From a virus: a DNA stretch of 48,545 bases. The stretch spans positions 1 to 48,545 of the IMG/VR virus record IMGVR_UViG_3300044949_002262. One strand, 5' to 3'. The notes beneath the pieces were generated by a model. That model made no database searches and had not been told where the DNA came from. It saw only the letters and a list, made by a program, of their open reading frames with translations. A program made the position numbers and the translations under genes. This document shows, piece after piece, positions 10,704 to 19,037 of this stretch (positions within the stretch are counted from its first letter, which is position 1; the number at the start of each line of letters is the position of its first letter).

Positions 10704-13643
10704 TTAAGCCGCCATGTTGAACAGCTTGGCGTATCTCTCTGCGGCATCATCCGGCTCGACATTACCGGGATCATTTGGATTCTGCGCAGGACCGCCCGAC
10801 ACCGCCGCACCTGGAGTCGCCTGACCTGGAGATTCTGATTGTACGGCCGTGACGGTGGGCGGCACTGGCGTTCTCTCAGCCATTGCATTTTCCTGGGATG
10901 CCCCTGCAACTGCAGCACCCATCTCGTTTCCTGAGGCTTTTGGCGCCGGAACTGGTGAAGATCCACCGCCGGTCTCCATCTGACCGCCACCCTCGCTACC
11001 GCCAGAGCTAGGCGCTTCTGCCATGGATGGCGATGCTGGACTAGTCGCCACTGGCTCTGCTGCAGTCTCACCCGCTGGTGACTTCTGGATCTGTCCCGTC
11101 ATGTGAGCCTGGAGTGTATCCTTGGACCACTCGGGAACCGATCTAGCGGAAAAGTCAGGTCCCCAGACTCGCCTGGACTCTACGTCGAGGTGGACCCAAC
11201 CAGGCCTGTAGACACCGATGCCGCCGATACCCGCAGCCGAGGCCGCTTCAACTAGCTTGTTTGTCTCTTCCTCGTTGCCCTGGAACCTGATGTCGACCGC
11301 GCTGGCTCTTGTATGAGAGGAGTTCCTTGCACCTCCCGCGGCGGCGTTGCGATGTGGATCTCTAAAGCCGCTGGTGATCGTGAGCTTCTTGCCGAATGCA
11401 CTCTCAATCTGCTGGACCTTCTGAGCGATGTCCTTCTTGATCCTGGGATCGACACCCGACGCGAATGTCAGACTGCCGGTTTCAGCAGCGCCTTCTTGTT
11501 CTTTTGCGAGCTGCTGAGAGCCGCTTCCCTCAGATGAATCACTGCCCGAAGGGGCGGGTGCAGGTGTAACAGTACCACTACCTGCGGCTCCAAACGGAAC
11601 AATACTAGGCATGGTTGATACATTCGACTTTGCTACCTGATTAGGTGCTGATCCGACAAATTCAATCTCACCGCCCTTAAATGTTACAGCTTTGGTTTTT
11701 GTGATCAGCCCCATCCCAGATGGACTTGTCCTGTCTGGAGTTGGTGCATTCTTGATAAGAGATTCTGCTGTTATTGTCGTCACCGAAGACTTAGAATCTG
11801 AGACCAAATCACTATCTTTAAGCATTCCACCTGCGGCTGCTCTGGTTACAAGATCGGCATTGTTACTGGGAATCACTGCAGGTACTTGCACCGGTGTTGC
11901 TGAAGCTGGCGCCTCTGTGGCTACCGAACTCGGAATTGCTGGTACTTGTGTCGGAGCTACTGGTGTTGCTGGTGCTGCAGGTGCTTGCACCGCTGGTGGC
12001 ACTAGTCCCGGTACTGCTGGTACTTGGATTGGTGGTGCTGGTACTGCTGGTACTTGGATTGGTGGTGCTGGTACTGCTGGTACTTGCACCGCTGGTGGCA
12101 CTAGTCCCGGTACTGCTGGTACTTGGATTGGTGGTGCTGGTACTGCTGGTACTTGGATTGGTAGCGCTGGTGGTGCTGGTACTGCTGGTACTTGGATTGG
12201 TGGCGCTGGTGGTGCTGGTACCTCTGTGGCTACAGGGCCTGGTACTGCTGGTACTTGCGCTGGTGGTGCTGGTAATGCCGGAACTGCAGATGTACCAGCG
12301 GCTGGTACATTGTTGGCTTGAGGTATGGCAATGTTATTAACAATTTCTTCCCTAGCCTGCTCAGCTGTCATCGTTCCATAGTGTAGACCTATTGTAATTC
12401 GATCGGCCTGTTCTCTAGTCAAGACGCCACTTGAAATTGCAGATTCAAGCTGATTGTAGATTTCCCTCTGCTCTTCTGATAGCTGAACAATGGGTGGCGG
12501 TGCATCATTCGACCCCACTCTTGTATTTCCCACCGGTGAAGGCGATGGCGGCTGTGTTTCAGATTCACGTCTAGCTTGATTTTGTGTTAACGCGTAACCT
12601 GCCGCACCGACTACAGCGGCTCCTGCCAGCACTGGCGCCGCGCTTCTAGCAAGGCCTGCCGCTCTTCCAAGCATTCTGCCAAATCGACCAAGCATGCCAA
12701 CTCTTTGTCGACCGCGAAGTCCCTTGACTGCTTCCAAAAGATCCTCTAAAAGATCGACACTCTTTCTCTGTTCAGTTGACAGAGCATTTAAGGCTTCTGC
12801 CATGGACATTGTCTTGTCCAAAGCCTTACGGCTTCTAGTCGCTTCCCTTACACCCTCTGTACTCTTCTTTTTCTTTTCATCATTGACGTATTCAATGACC
12901 TTAGCAAGTGTGGGAAACGCAGTTCTAAAAACGTCTCCACCCAGACGCTTCATCTTATCCTTTGTCGTCTCACCCTTCTTCTCACCCTTGATTGTCTTAG
13001 TTAGTTTAGTGAGGGTAGGAAATGCCGTGGAGAACATATCTCTACCGACACGACCGAGAAGACTCCTCGACTTTGTATCATCCTCTTCCTCATCCTCTTC
13101 CTCACCCGCAGGTTTCTGAGGTGAAACTAGATTACCGACTTTTACGCTGGAGAGGTCACCCTTCTTGTCTACGACTACTACCTTTTCAATTTCTTTCGGC
13201 TTTGACGTCTTGTCCGGAACAGGCATTGTTTTACCTGCGCCAGCCTTGGGCTGCTCTTTCTTTTCTGGTATGACCTTTTGCTCTATGGGCGCTGCTTGCT
13301 CTACGGGAGTTGTATCACTAGAGACTGCAGGTCTGCTCTTACCCTGAAGGGTTGATACTCTCTTGACGAACCTTTTTCTGTCAAACTTTTTGCCGACCTT
13401 TATAAAGGCCCTCTCTATTGACGATATGAGAAGTCTCTCTACCTTCTCCAGATGCTTCTCGAGATCATCGGGATCGGAAAGTAACTTTGCAAGAGGACTC
13501 TTCGGATCCGTCAGATCCTTCCTTGCTTCATCCAGTCGCAGCTTGACATCTTCAGGTGTATATTCCTCATAAGGCTTTCTGTTGCGCCTGGGAAGAGGCT
13601 TTTGCGCAACTCCCTCATCGCTATCCGGGTACTTGTCTGACAT
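10704..13643 (-). CDS. Large virion protein with Pro-rich repeat and M15 (D-Ala-D-Ala) peptidase domain, 979 aa
   Basis: Start at ATG 13643 (MSDKYPDSDEG); a GTG lies one codon upstream. Regions: charged N-terminus; acidic block GEEEDEEEDD near residue 180; an internal duplicate DMFSTAFPTLTKL / DVFRTAFPTLAKV (about 203-250); a hydrophobic Ala-rich segment (about 321-350); Pro-rich repeats of VPAVPAPPIQ type (about 450-590); a peptidase domain (about 740-830). The latter has SGFRDPHRN, HTRASAVDI (zinc His and Asp) and WVHLD (zinc His), the M15/VanY signature. It probably cleaves peptidoglycan cross-links during DNA entry. It is last in the operon after gp26 and holin. Alternatives: tape-measure or hub component. 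Confidence 0.75.
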   Translation of the reverse strand: MSDKYPDSDEGVAQKPLPRRNRKPYEEYTPEDVKLRLDEARKDLTDPKSPLAKLLSDPDDLEKHLEKVERLLISSIERAFIKVGKKFDRKRFVKRVSTLQGKSRPAVSSDTTPVEQAAPIEQKVIPEKKEQPKAGAGKTMPVPDKTSKPKEIEKVVVVDKKGDLSSVKVGNLVSPQKPAGEEEDEEEDDTKSRSLLGRVGRDMFSTAFPTLTKLTKTIKGEKKGETTKDKMKRLGGDVFRTAFPTLAKVIEYVNDEKKKKSTEGVREATRSRKALDKTMSMAEALNALSTEQRKSVDLLEDLLEAVKGLRGRQRVGMLGRFGRMLGRAAGLARSAAPVLAGAAVVGAAGYALTQNQARRESETQPPSPSPVGNTRVGSNDAPPPIVQLSEEQREIYNQLESAISSGVLTREQADRITIGLHYGTMTAEQAREEIVNNIAIPQANNVPAAGTSAVPALPAPPAQVPAVPGPVATEVPAPPAPPIQVPAVPAPPALPIQVPAVPAPPIQVPAVPGLVPPAVQVPAVPAPPIQVPAVPAPPIQVPAVPGLVPPAVQAPAAPATPVAPTQVPAIPSSVATEAPASATPVQVPAVIPSNNADLVTRAAAGGMLKDSDLVSDSKSSVTTITAESLIKNAPTPDRTSPSGMGLITKTKAVTFKGGEIEFVGSAPNQVAKSNVSTMPSIVPFGAAGSGTVTPAPAPSGSDSSEGSGSQQLAKEQEGAAETGSLTFASGVDPRIKKDIAQKVQQIESAFGKKLTITSGFRDPHRNAAAGGARNSSHTRASAVDIRFQGNEEETNKLVEAASAAGIGGIGVYRPGWVHLDVESRRVWGPDFSARSVPEWSKDTLQAHMTGQIQKSPAGETAAEPVATSPASPSMAEAPSSGGSEGGGQMETGGGSSPVPAPKASGNEMGAAVAGASQENAMAERTPVPPTVTAVQSESPGQATPGAAVSGGPAQNPNDPGNVEPDDAAERYAKLFNMAA
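11937..12275. repeat. In-frame tandem DNA repeat coding for Pro/Val/Ala-rich segment
   Basis: The block GGTACTGCTGGTACTTGGAT, followed by TGGTGGTGCT, recurs many times on the plus strand with near-perfect identity. It includes two long copies carrying CACCGCTGGTGGCACTAGTC (first at 11989, again at 12087). Unit lengths are multiples of three, so expansions keep the frame of the minus-strand gene. Confidence 0.85.
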
Positions 13644-16060
13644 CACGCCACCTGCTTTTCTAGTCTTCTATTTAAGGACACTTCACCTCTATCAATAGAT
13701 GCTTGTTGCTCGCCGGCAACAATCCTCTGCGGCAAGGATGCAGGCGGAATCTGCACTACAACTTCCTGGCCCTGACCTCGTGCTTGCGCCTGGTCTGCTG
13801 CCGCCATCTGTGCGCCCTCTGCAGCTAGAGCGGGACCAGGACCAGGCGGCGCTTGTTCAGCTGAGGCTACTGCGGTTCCCTGCTGTATGACCTGGACACT
13901 GCCCACACGGAATCCTTCGATCCTCTCCATTGCAGCAAGCAGCGCCTGTCTCTGGCCAGAGTTTAGGTCCCTCATCATCGTGCTAGGCGCTACACCTGCA
14001 GCCGCGGCCGCGACTCTGATGTACATCGCAGTGTCGTTTTCGGACGGCGGTGCATACCTAGTGATAGCTTGAGCTATGGTCAGACCGCTGTAATTCCTGC
14101 CCTTAAACAGCAGCGCTTCTTTTGCTCTTCTACCCACATCGTACGTCGGGAAGATGGCAAACCTACCGTCAGTTCCGATGGCTCCCTGGCGTCTAGCAAA
14201 GTCACCAAACTCGATGTTGCCCGGGTTGTTGTTTCTCCAGTTTCTAGCGCCGGTTCTGCGCTCTACCCTACCGTCATCGTACCTGACCACGTTGAATCCA
14301 GGACCCCTCTCCACAACCTCAGTTATGGTACCAGTTGATGCGCCCGCACCGGTGCCATCTCCACTGATAGACGGAGTTACAGGCACCGTTGCAGTTCGCT
14401 GCGCCGATGCAGATACTTGAGATATAGGTGAGGTTGATGGTGTAGTAGTTGCTCTGGGTGTGACACCGCCAAAAACAGCCCTGCCGACTCTAGAAATGTT
14501 TCCATATACGCTTGGCGTAGTGCCACTAGTCGGAGGCCTCGTAACAGGCAATGGTCTTGCAGCGCTATCAGGTGCCGTCTCCGCCGACTGCGGAGGAGTC
14601 AATTCTGTTCGAACCGGTGCCGATGCTTCCGGACTCTGTCTTCTCGACCTATCGAGGTAAAGCTGATACCTTTGTCTTCTGAGCCACAGTTCTCTTTCCG
14701 CTATTCTAGCTCCGCCGCTCAATTCTCTGGGTAAGTTCTCAAGAAGGGTCTGATCTGTAACGTCTCTGGTTGCCTCTGTTATCTCTGGCCAGAGTCTCTG
14801 TATCTCTTCAGTTTCGCGTCTAGATTCCTCTACCCTTCTTTCCTGACCTCGCTGAGCTTCCCTTACGGATCTTTCAGCGTCCGTTTCCCCGCCTGCTTGA
14901 ACTTCGAGCTGTGACGGCGCTGGCTGGTCAGAATAAAACTCAGCTGCAGCTCCAGCTGCAGGTCCTGCCTCTCTTGTAGCTACTCTTTCCCTATTGCTTC
15001 TTGCTTGCTCTTCAGCAGCCTCACTTAGATATGAAGCGACCTGTATGACTATTTCCCTGAAGATTTCTTCTCTTTCGGGGTTATGGGGATCATTTTCCGG
15101 GTATACGCCGATGAGTTCTCTGTATATCTCTCGTGACTCGTTCACCGTGGCTGCAGCTGCACCAGCCGCGATACCAACAACTGGTATAGCGCCAAGTAAA
15201 GCAGCTCCTAATTCTATGCCTGCACCGACAAAATCACCGTTTCTAAGTCGATTCAAGACAGGAATTGCTGCAAGAGCTATAGCAAGTCCTGGTATGATTC
15301 TCCTGAAGGAACTAACCGCCGCCCTTCTTGCAGCTGCTGGAATCCTGGATCTTATTTGCGCTCTTAACTGTTGGGCGCTAAGTCTAGAAGCTTCGGGTGC
15401 TCGAGGACTCGGTGTCACCGAAGGAATCAAAATGGGTCTAGGTGCTGCTGCAGGACTTGGAGCTCGAATTGTAGGCTCTATTCTAGTGGGTCTAGCCTGA
15501 ACTGGGGGTCTTACCCTAGTTACAGTTTCTCTTACAACCTGTCTGACGGCTTGTGTCTGTCTGGAGATTTGCTGTCTTATTGCCTGCACACGACGAACTC
15601 TCTGTGCAGCTCTCATGCGGCGCAGTCTTTCGCGACCACGCGCGCCAAACCTACCTCTTCGACCTCTAAGCCTAGGTCTCGGACGCCCACCACCGATACC
15701 TGGCAACTCTCCACCTGCACCGTCAGGGTTGAGATCAAGACCTTTCAGCTCAGCAATGATCTTGGCTAGGATATCATTTTGTCTGTCCTGCAGTTCCACA
15801 GATTCACTTATGCGCAGGACATTTGCCGCCGCAACTTCCATCTCCTTAGACTTGATAGTCTGAAGTCTACTCTCGCGGTATGCCTGAGCTGCGTCGACTA
15901 CCACCTTCTTTGCAAATGTACTGGCTAGAGAGCCAAACCTACGAAATGCTGACTTGGAGGCGTCAGTACCAGCTGCGGCTCTGGTACTGACCCTAGGCCT
16001 ATCGGAGGCAGGAGCCACCGGCGACGGCAGTGGTCTGTTGCTTGCCGGTGACTCCGCCAT
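13643..16060 (-). CDS. Large virion protein with lytic-transglycosylase-type domain; tape-measure candidate, 805 aa
   Basis: Residues 1-130 are charged/helical. There is an Arg-rich segment (about 150-200) and a hydrophobic Ala/Gly-rich membrane-like region at about 253-304 (PGLAIALAAIPVLNRL, AALLGAIPVVGIAAGAAAA). A domain at about 600-725 starts RNWRNNNPGNIEFGDFA and contains GTDGRFAIFPT and ITRYAPPSENDTAMY. That RNNNPGNI domain is known from virion-associated muramidase-like proteins of several phages. Classic tail clusters place the tape measure just after frameshifted chaperones, as here (gp26, holin, this gene). Its stop overlaps the next start (GTGATG). Function as tape measure is inference. 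Confidence 0.7.
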   Translation of the reverse strand: MAESPASNRPLPSPVAPASDRPRVSTRAAAGTDASKSAFRRFGSLASTFAKKVVVDAAQAYRESRLQTIKSKEMEVAAANVLRISESVELQDRQNDILAKIIAELKGLDLNPDGAGGELPGIGGGRPRPRLRGRRGRFGARGRERLRRMRAAQRVRRVQAIRQQISRQTQAVRQVVRETVTRVRPPVQARPTRIEPTIRAPSPAAAPRPILIPSVTPSPRAPEASRLSAQQLRAQIRSRIPAAARRAAVSSFRRIIPGLAIALAAIPVLNRLRNGDFVGAGIELGAALLGAIPVVGIAAGAAAATVNESREIYRELIGVYPENDPHNPEREEIFREIVIQVASYLSEAAEEQARSNRERVATREAGPAAGAAAEFYSDQPAPSQLEVQAGGETDAERSVREAQRGQERRVEESRRETEEIQRLWPEITEATRDVTDQTLLENLPRELSGGARIAERELWLRRQRYQLYLDRSRRQSPEASAPVRTELTPPQSAETAPDSAARPLPVTRPPTSGTTPSVYGNISRVGRAVFGGVTPRATTTPSTSPISQVSASAQRTATVPVTPSISGDGTGAGASTGTITEVVERGPGFNVVRYDDGRVERRTGARNWRNNNPGNIEFGDFARRQGAIGTDGRFAIFPTYDVGRRAKEALLFKGRNYSGLTIAQAITRYAPPSENDTAMYIRVAAAAAGVAPSTMMRDLNSGQRQALLAAMERIEGFRVGSVQVIQQGTAVASAEQAPPGPGPALAAEGAQMAAADQAQARGQGQEVVVQIPPASLPQRIVAGEQQASIDRGEVSLNRRLEKQVA

Positions 16061-16062
16061 AG

Positions 16063-16407
16063 TTAGTCTCTTTCAACCCTACGGTGACGTCTCATGTCAT
16101 CATCGTCGTCATTGTTCTCAATGGACTTGATCTTCTCCTGCCCACGAGTCCATGCAGCGACGCCGAGGATGGCACCGAACGCAAGGTGAATGATGCCGCC
16201 GTTGGACAGAGACAGGCTCTCCCAAGCGGCATAGGCTGTGTCAGCAAGTCCAAAGCTCTTCATGATGATCGGAATGAACATAGCAAGTAGCGGAAACATC
16301 ACAAAGTCCATAAAGCAGATGAGCATGTAGAGCCAGCCCATGGCTGGTCTCCAGTATGCCCTAACCCAGTGTTCCTCTGGTTTCTGTGTGTCAGCGCTTG
16401 TTTGCAT
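16063..16407 (-). CDS. Holin, GTA 3TM family, 114 aa
   Basis: WRPAMGWLYMLICFMDFVMFPLLAMFIPII forms one or two membrane spans (shown here in part as the region of residues 19-48). GGIIHLAFGAILGVAAWTRG (about 70-89) is the conserved C-terminal span and WTRGQEK motif of the three-TM holins found with gene-transfer agents and some aquatic myoviruses. The acidic run NNDDDDD and basic tail RRHRRVERD follow. It would permeabilise the inner membrane for lysis. It is located inside the tail operon rather than beside an endolysin, and its start overlaps the end of the frameshift ORF by 17 nt. Confidence 0.8.
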   Translation of the reverse strand: MQTSADTQKPEEHWVRAYWRPAMGWLYMLICFMDFVMFPLLAMFIPIIMKSFGLADTAYAAWESLSLSNGGIIHLAFGAILGVAAWTRGQEKIKSIENNDDDDDMRRHRRVERD

Positions 16408-16585
16408 TTTCCCTCTGCTCCTTTAGCTCTTTAAGGAATTGCAGAAGCATTTGGACGAAGACGTCACGCTCGAATGGTATGAGTCCCTCTACTTCTTTAA
16501 TTGAGTACTTATGGTGCTGAATCAGGGCAAAGAGAGTTAGGTAGTAGTTCTCTAGCGTGTTGTGATTCAGCGCAACGTAAAAAAA
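16391..16585 (-). CDS. Downstream ORF expressed by -1 frameshift from gp26 (tail-assembly-chaperone extension)
   Basis: A 64-codon open frame overlapping the gp26 end in the -1 frame. It has no ATG, GTG or TTG before a Met deep inside, and an in-frame TGA lies directly upstream, so independent initiation is unlikely. Slipping back one base on the seven-T run yields a continuation beginning YVALNHNTLENYYLTLFAL, then EGLIPFERDVFVQMLLQFL, ending ENANKR; the fusion is 295 aa. The helical IPFERD segment recalls the second member of chaperone pairs in myoviruses, possibly the counterpart of T4 gp51. See the frameshift finding. Confidence 0.75.
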   Translation of the reverse strand, partial: FFYVALNHNTLENYYLTLFALIQHHKYSIKEVEGLIPFERDVFVQMLLQFLKELKEQRENANKR

Positions 16586-17277
16586 TCAGTTAGGCTCGTA
16601 AGTTCAATCACTCTCTCATTGCCGCTAGAGTTGGTGTAGGTCAGTTTGTGGTGCAGACGAGGCGCCGCAGCCATGAAGTTTTGGATCTTCTCCAGGGTCT
16701 CAACGCCGCAGTCATCCAGGAACTCCTCAATCTCCTTGAGAGAGTAGTCCGCAGGATTGTACAGGTCATCCCCGTCATAGATCTTGTCGACGCAGCGAAG
16801 GATCAGCTCGTAGTAGGCTTCGTCGCCTGCGGTGAAGTACTGCTTGTCGTCCAGCAGGGACGCAGCGGGCCACCTCATCACGAATCCCATGGAATCGGTG
16901 ACCTTGATGACAGGGTCCACATTCTCTGGAAACTGGACCTTGACTTCCTTGAGGTCGATAGTGAAGTCGTATACCTTCCTGTCCTCGCTGTCCCTATAAG
17001 ATACCTGGACGATGTTGCTTACAGACACAGCTCTCAGCTGAAGGAACAGGTACTCGAGGTCAAAGATCGGCAGCTTGTCCACGTCGAACGCCTCACTGAT
17101 GGCGCAGTTGTTGACTATCTGCTTCACGGCTCGCAGTGAGTCTGCTGGATCCTCTGACGACTTTGCAATCAGCAGGATCTTCTCTTCCCTGACGAGAAAG
17201 GGTCTGAACGACTCCTTCTTGCCCGTGGACGGAACCGTGAACTCGTAGATTGGGTGCTTGACTTTAGGTAGTGGCAT
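16567..17277 (-). CDS. 26: gp26 baseplate hub subunit (T4 baseplate / chaperone family), 236 aa
   Basis: MPLPKVKHPIYEFTVPSTGK, RPFLVREEKILLIAKSSED and LPIFDLEYLFLQLRAVSV are characteristic of T4-like gp26 (the short-tail baseplate family PF12322 as I know it). A GGAG lies 8 nt before the ATG. It acts in baseplate hub assembly. The last codons overlap a slippery run that can extend it by 62 residues. Preceded by the gp54-like gene, followed by holin and tail proteins. Confidence 0.85.
   Translation of the reverse strand: MPLPKVKHPIYEFTVPSTGKKESFRPFLVREEKILLIAKSSEDPADSLRAVKQIVNNCAISEAFDVDKLPIFDLEYLFLQLRAVSVSNIVQVSYRDSEDRKVYDFTIDLKEVKVQFPENVDPVIKVTDSMGFVMRWPAASLLDDKQYFTAGDEAYYELILRCVDKIYDGDDLYNPADYSLKEIEEFLDDCGVETLEKIQNFMAAAPRLHHKLTYTNSSGNERVIELTSLTDFFTLR
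16579..16585 (-). promoter_or_regulatory. Slippery heptanucleotide for programmed -1 frameshift
   Basis: Seven T on the minus strand, in phase as T-TTT-TTT within the gp26 codons GAT TTT TTT ACG, 10 nt before the gp26 stop codon. This is a canonical X-XXY-YYZ site. I did not compute the stimulatory structure downstream. Confidence 0.75.
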
Positions 17278-18578: not shown

Positions 18579-19037
18579 CTATTTATCACCACGACCGTAG
18601 ATCTGATCCTCAGTCATGATCATGAACTTCCATCCTCGGTCCTTGCAGTAGTCCTCGGCGGCTGTCCACTTGGCCTTGTTCACGCCCCACGTCATCACCT
18701 CAGTCAGGTACCTGCGAGACTGTCTTGGGTTCTCTGGTCTCTTTGGCTCGACTGTCTGCGCCTTTGGCTTCACCTCGACCAGCACCGTCTCGTTGATGCC
18801 CTTCCTCGTACGCATGTGGACTAGGAAGTCTGGAAAGTACCTGTGGACTCTGTTGTCGACCGGTGAGCGATAGGGTATGATCCTCTCCTCGGACGACCAC
18901 CAGAGGACATCTGAGTGCAGGTCAAAGTAGCTCATGAGCCTGAGCTCCCATCCGGATCGGTATACGATGTTAGAGGGATCGCCCCTGTACTTGTCGGGGT
19001 TCTTTGGCTTGAAGAAGCCCTGGTTGTATTTCGGCAT
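18579..19037 (-). CDS. 4: gp4 head completion protein (TnsA-like nuclease fold), 152 aa
   Basis: PSNIVYRSGWELRLMSYFDL, YRSPVDNRVHRYFPDFLVHM and VLVEVKPKAQT give the E-xn-D-x-ExK pattern of the PD-(D/E)xK/TnsA nuclease fold characteristic of T4 gp4 (gp50). Length matches T4 gp4 (150 aa). Acts in head completion before tail joining. First gene of the leftward late operon, behind the late box at 19075-19082. Confidence 0.9.
   Translation of the reverse strand: MPKYNQGFFKPKNPDKYRGDPSNIVYRSGWELRLMSYFDLHSDVLWWSSEERIIPYRSPVDNRVHRYFPDFLVHMRTRKGINETVLVEVKPKAQTVEPKRPENPRQSRRYLTEVMTWGVNKAKWTAAEDYCKDRGWKFMIMTEDQIYGRGDK
18580..18587 (-). promoter_or_regulatory. Possible late promoter, GATAAATA
   Basis: On the minus strand GATAAATA overlaps the gp4 stop codon, 22 nt before the next start codon. 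One mismatch to the T4 late box. Confidence 0.35.

Follow-up and report, generated by a model that had tools for sequence, protein, structure and literature searches.

The question raised by this locus was whether an uncultured T4-related phage makes one protein or two from its gp26 gene. The window, i.e. the whole stretch of DNA analysed (48,545 nt, IMG/VR virus record IMGVR_UViG_3300044949_002262), carries on its minus strand a gp26-like gene that ends in a run of T, and the -1 frame stays open beyond the gp26 stop codon. A preliminary description, made from the letters alone, had read this arrangement as a programmed -1 frameshift that yields a gp26-gp51 fusion by a logic like that of lambda G/GT. 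The features concerned were:

16567..17277, minus strand: gp26-like baseplate hub / tail assembly chaperone, short form, 236 aa (PF12322, PHROG 150, structure model)
16579..16585, minus strand: slippery heptamer T TTT TTT in the gp26 phase (direct reading; kept in relatives)
16391..16579, minus strand: -1 frame extension, 62 codons and stop, gp51-like C-terminal part of the predicted long form (PHROG 634)
16063..16407, minus strand: next gene, 114 aa, holin-like membrane protein (PHROG 3427, 3.1e-5)

Read directly on the minus strand, the gp26 gene ends ACT GAT TTT TTT ACG TTG CGC TGA. The heptamer (16585-16579) lies in the gp26 phase that is needed for a tandem -1 slip, as first described, and 9 nt separate it from the gp26 stop TGA (16569-16567). 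The -1 frame has a TGA directly 5' of the T run, followed by 62 open codons (16579-16394) and a TGA stop (16393-16391), so that the 62-residue extension was also read correctly. The tail protein starts YVALNHN and ends ENANKR, and the predicted long form has 233 + 62 = 295 aa. The ATG of the 114-aa holin-like gene overlaps the end of the extension by 17 nt. The pattern TTTTTTYA occurred once in the window, where about one occurrence is expected by chance; the heptamer alone therefore proves nothing, and the case rests on conservation.

The identity of both parts was examined with profiles. Membership of PF12322 (T4_baseplate) was assigned if the score exceeded the gathering threshold and most of the domain was covered, and gp26 matched profile positions 2-218 of 219 at 6.1e-53 with 180 bits (cut-off 24.5); it also matched PHROG 150 (baseplate hub) at 1.6e-59. 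The -1 tail matched positions 58-117 of 121 of PHROG 634 ("baseplate hub assembly catalyst", gp51) at 3.3e-22, in agreement with the early suggestion that the tail is a gp51-like component. T4 gp51 belongs to the same PHROG 634 family. PF12322 was matched by T4 gp26 (9e-64) and by residues 1-201 of T4 gp51 (4e-52), and T4 gp51 runs past this domain into the PHROG 634 region; on these profile matches, T4 gp51 is a gp26-like domain plus the tail. A profile of the predicted fusions aligned to T4 gp51 through the junction, in a search with two targets only, so that the Pfam and PHROG matches weigh more than its E-values. By these matches and the junction-spanning alignment, the 295-aa fusion is colinear with the 249-aa T4 gp51.

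A comparison of gp26 loci in related phages, for a conserved heptamer and an open -1 frame, had been proposed as a check. Relatives were collected from IMG/VR (78 loci in one search and 80 in another, two contigs being common to both). All 148 loci with a readable gp26 end carried T TTT TTT or T TTT TTC in phase, and the gp51 tail was always in the -1 frame in the loci that cover it. In a non-redundant set of 89 genes (at most 80% identity, window's gene included), the codon before Phe-Phe ended in T in 89/89 genes against a gene background of 74%, and the first Phe was TTT in all 89 against a gene-wide background of 68%; the second Phe was TTT in 79 and TTC in 10. The probability of this codon bias was about 1e-27 with the loci treated as independent, and as they are related the value serves as a guide only. 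Judged by these codon counts, variation between T and C at heptamer position 7, with positions 1 and 4 fixed, is the freedom allowed by a tandem slip.

T4 and 44RR aside, 22 cultured phages were examined, and 18 of them had T TTT TTY: Kyanoviridae cyanophages, Pelagibacter phage HTVC008M, Methylophilales phage Melnitz-3, Vibrio and Aeromonas Straboviridae, and phages of Delftia, Stenotrophomonas and Pseudomonas. Rhizobium AF3 had T TTT TTG at the gp26 site, and Vibrio VAP7, Vibrio D510 and Pseudomonas Cygsa01 were without a canonical heptamer. Homopolymer runs are common sites of sequencing error, and the T run in the window could mark such an error or a decayed gene. This is contradicted because the same frame change stands at the same site in the 148 loci and in 18 cultured genomes, with the tail protein conserved, and we find an artefact or pseudogene barely credible.

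Slippage could also take place in transcription, if RNA polymerase added an extra U to the mRNA on the seven T's of the window and the fusion were translated from that message. Seven T's are a short run for RNA polymerase slippage, and only six T's followed by C are present in 10 of the 89 non-redundant loci and in 16 of the 18 heptamer-bearing cultured phages. The bases at positions 1, 4 and 7 of the heptamer are as expected for a tandem tRNA slip, and a stem at a fixed 7-nt spacer (below) is the layout of a ribosomal signal. Given the T TTT TTC variants and the stem, transcriptional slippage was judged extremely unlikely.

A different reading takes the tail for a small gp51 gene in its own right, which ribosomes would enter by re-initiation or at an internal start. 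Cyanophage records do annotate a gp51 of 41-60 aa from internal or alternative starts, and in several other phages the gp26 stop overlaps an ATG (TAATG/TGATG), so that a separate gp51 could arise there by re-initiation; VAP7, Cygsa01 and D510 combine such an ATG with the lack of a canonical heptamer. In the window, the first start codon of the -1 tail is the ATG of residue 44, and no SD was found, in keeping with the early remark that the frame makes no sense as a gene of its own; an independent small gene was rejected here. Homologues with their own start and SD had been named as the pattern that would speak against a fusion. Between the opening of the -1 frame and tail codon 10, no ATG, GTG or TTG was present in 45 of 87 non-redundant loci, and a start preceded by an SD-like tetramer was found in 0/87. 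The conserved tail already begins at the heptamer, 5' of the starts given in the annotations, T4 gp51 is the full fusion and not a 60-aa peptide, and a separate gene leaves the heptamer and the stem unexplained. We therefore regard an independent gp51 gene as very unlikely. The gp26 genes of VAP7, Cygsa01 and D510 (loci L167, L169 and L171) end GTT TTT, ATT TTC and CTT TTC, respectively, and the same tail may be reached in these phages through a weaker slip or through translational coupling.

The annotation of gp51 was inspected in the cultured phages. It started from internal codons in S-RSM4, Sf-FP1, Syn19, HTVC008M and Melnitz-3, and gp51 was not listed in ACG-2014j, ACG-2014e, Aeromonas CC2 and Aeh1. 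A -1 tail of 56-58 aa follows the T TTT TTC of gp26 in Aeromonas phage CC2 (L166, 3203-3372) and Aeh1 (L184, ~2507); the Aeh1 gp26 ends GAT TTT TTC GAC TGA, with the -1 tail unannotated. Cyanophage gp51 was described at about 20% of the normal length, missing the first ~200 residues, and gp51 was described as absent in Aeh1 (Sullivan 2010, PMC3037559). A frameshift that supplies the first ~200 residues from gp26 would account for both the short and the "missing" gp51, and frameshifting very probably explains the truncated or missing gp51 of many marine phage annotations. These findings indicate that gp51 in most T4-related environmental phages is the frameshift end of gp26, neither a 40-60 aa orphan nor missing. 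In many public records of cyanophages, vibriophages and Aeromonas phages, it is either given a doubtful internal start or left out.

The ribosomal -1 frameshift was further examined through the RNA downstream of the heptamer, where two complementary arms were located:

16563..16571, minus strand: 5' arm of a putative stimulatory stem, GCTGAATCA, which holds the gp26 stop TGA (16569-16567)
16516..16524, minus strand: 3' arm of the putative stimulatory stem, TGATTCAGC, with a 38-nt loop between the arms

A frameshift stem was defined as one that lies 5-9 nt after the heptamer and shows compensatory change; the window's stem has 9 bp, follows the heptamer after a 7-nt spacer (16578-16572) and covaries. 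The 70 nt after the heptamer folded at -16.5 kcal/mol (z -3.4 against dinucleotide shuffles), and the mean folding z over the loci was -3.1 (stop at +15) or -2.4 (stop at +9), with controls at about -0.2. When the stem was scored in an alignment of 66 sequences, 86.9% of cells were paired against 20-35% when slid, and 25 cells carried a double change against 8.9 expected, a count reached in 0/500 shuffles. An alignment of 20 loci with other stop spacings gave 88.3% paired cells (26-44% when slid) and 20 double-change cells (8.0 expected), again with 0/500 shuffles reaching the count. The stem stretch also codes in the -1 frame, and synonymous recoding was hence used as a coding control: the native mean was -16.2 kcal/mol and the recoded mean -7.2 kcal/mol (mean z -3.2), with values of +0.24 for the later part of the tail and -0.17 for the gp26 interior. 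A coding-only origin of the stem was ruled out by this recoding.

RNAalifold returned no consensus structure for the 66-sequence alignment, probably because some rows are in another register; L094, L095, L098 and L129 have the stem in another register, the window's register being broken. Rfam gave no family match for window positions 16200-16800, and a scan for other conserved helices gave U-run/A-rich pairs only. The hairpins of cultured cyanophages differ (P-SSM2, z -4.3; Sf-FP1, -4.0; ACG-2014j, -5.1), and in many cultured cyanophages a GGAG/GAGG-like sequence precedes the heptamer by 10-16 nt. The register of the stem is specific to the lineage; in cultured cyanophages, other hairpins and/or the upstream GGAG are kept in its place. 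In loci L048, L054, L056, L063 and L172, an SD-like sequence, in many cases GGAGGG, precedes the T TTT TTC site by 10-16 nt, and the stem is poorer in the register of the window. Over the loci, the weaker the stem, the stronger the SD-like sequence tends to be (rho 0.29, p 0.003, relatedness uncorrected). From its position and conservation, the stem would be expected to raise slippage.

For structural comparison, gp26 and a T4-like gp51 were folded. The gp26 ends came out misaligned in a mixed protein alignment of tails, gp26 and gp51, which was kept out of the folding. The gp26 model (pLDDT 87.6, pTM 0.83) gave 3fgx (Z 8.5), 2ob9 (Z 7.4) and 3klu (Z 6.6) as ranks 1-3 in VIA-align, the next, unrelated match being at 3.9, and the match to chaperones spans residues 1-95 only. 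The entry 2ob9 is the HK97 tail assembly chaperone and 3klu is YqbN; 3fgx and 3klu are proteins that we take to be phage-tail-chaperone-like and of prophage origin. Foldseek alone gave no significant match for the gp26 model. The gp26 model argues with moderate strength for an N-terminal gp26 fold that resembles HK97-type tail assembly chaperones. In the T4-like gp51 model (pLDDT 91.9), the part corresponding to the tail is helical, as expected if the extension is helical, as the preliminary description had it; VIA-align of this model gave no chaperone among the matches listed.

Two long genes lie downstream of gp26:

13643-16060, minus strand: 805-aa protein with a lysozyme/tape-measure-like C-terminal region
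10704-13646, minus strand: 980-aa protein with Peptidase M15 and long proline-alanine-valine repeats

Both had been put forward as candidate tape-measure proteins, a role that was not established; in the 805-aa protein, the match to a tape-measure family is confined to residues 592-760 and probably comes from an enzymatic domain. On the other side of gp26, the gp4-like head closure protein (18579-19037, minus strand) matched the PF08722 TnsA-like endonuclease N-terminal domain at 1.9e-22.

We consider it highly likely that gp26 makes two tail assembly chaperones through a stem-aided -1 frameshift of the lambda G/GT kind. The reading of a gp26-gp51 fusion, and of a lambda-like logic behind it, is strongly supported by the conservation of heptamer, phase and tail, by the PHROG 634 match, the colinearity with T4 gp51, the chaperone-like fold and the stem. 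We infer that ribosomes slip in the window's phage, that the rate of slipping leaves the long form in the minority, and that the products act as chaperones. Most ribosomes would stop at the TGA (16569-16567) and release the 236-aa gp26 as the short form. A minority would slip by -1 in tandem on U UUU UUU, with re-pairing of two tRNA-Phe, helped by the 9-bp RNA stem that lies 7 nt downstream with the gp26 stop inside it; these ribosomes would read 62 more residues and give the 295-aa gp26-gp51 fusion, the long form. On the model of lambda gpG/gpGT, the N-terminal domain common to both forms would coat the tape-measure protein, the helical gp51 extension, carried by the rarer long form, might recruit tail-tube or hub components, and both forms would be gone before the virion is complete. 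The conserved RNA stem is directly testable.

Like lambda gpG/gpGT, HK97 and P2 E/E', the window has a short form and a predicted -1 frameshift-extended long form from one gene, with a slippery heptamer at the gene end in the tail gene region, and the predicted fold of the gp26 N-terminal domain resembles that of the HK97 chaperone. It differs from these pairs in that the protein is of the PF12322 family of T4-related myophages and the heptamer is T TTT TTY, in the covarying stem that contains the 0-frame stop, and in its neighbours, as the gene adjoins a tail-tube-like gene and a tape-measure gene directly downstream was not established.

T4 gp26 and gp51 resemble the window's products, both being PF12322 proteins of which only gp51 has the C-terminal extension. 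T4 and its close relatives differ from the window in having two divergently placed genes, 26 and 51, in place of one gene with a frameshift: T4 gene 26 reads GAG TTC TTT GAG and is without T TTT TTY, the 44RR genes 26 and 51 are also separate and divergent, and T TTT TTY was found in none of six other T4-like gene 26 ends. In a tree of the gp26/gp51 domain, the T4-type gp26 copies form one group and the T4-type gp51 copies another; as the tree does not resolve its root and backbone, no claim is made on whether frameshift or two genes is the older state. The two arrangements are a natural comparison for how the ratio of two assembly chaperones is fixed. A stop inside a covarying stem here, other hairpins or an SD-like stimulator in relatives and a separate gene 51 in T4 make it somewhat probable, in our view, that the signal is exchangeable and the two-form output conserved.

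Short and long forms of T4-like chaperones, some made by poly-T frameshifting as predicted for the window, are credited to Vladimirov, Gautam and Davidson 2022 (Virology 566:9), which is cited for T4-like phages with separate short and long chaperone genes in place of a frameshift (PRFect paper, PMC10885494) and for poly-T frameshift signals in T4-like chaperone genes (Adele paper, PMC12846349). As the chaperone role and poly-T frameshifting are already attributed to that work in these citations, the frameshift phenomenon in general is not new; the covarying stem that holds the gp26 stop is new here, and the lack of a description of it in the searchable literature or Rfam is weak evidence of novelty. 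The "short gp51" of cyanophages and marine vibriophages (PMC3037559) has the same tail as the window's extension, and the window departs from that description in that the missing ~200 residues are those of gp26, joined to the tail by the predicted frameshift.
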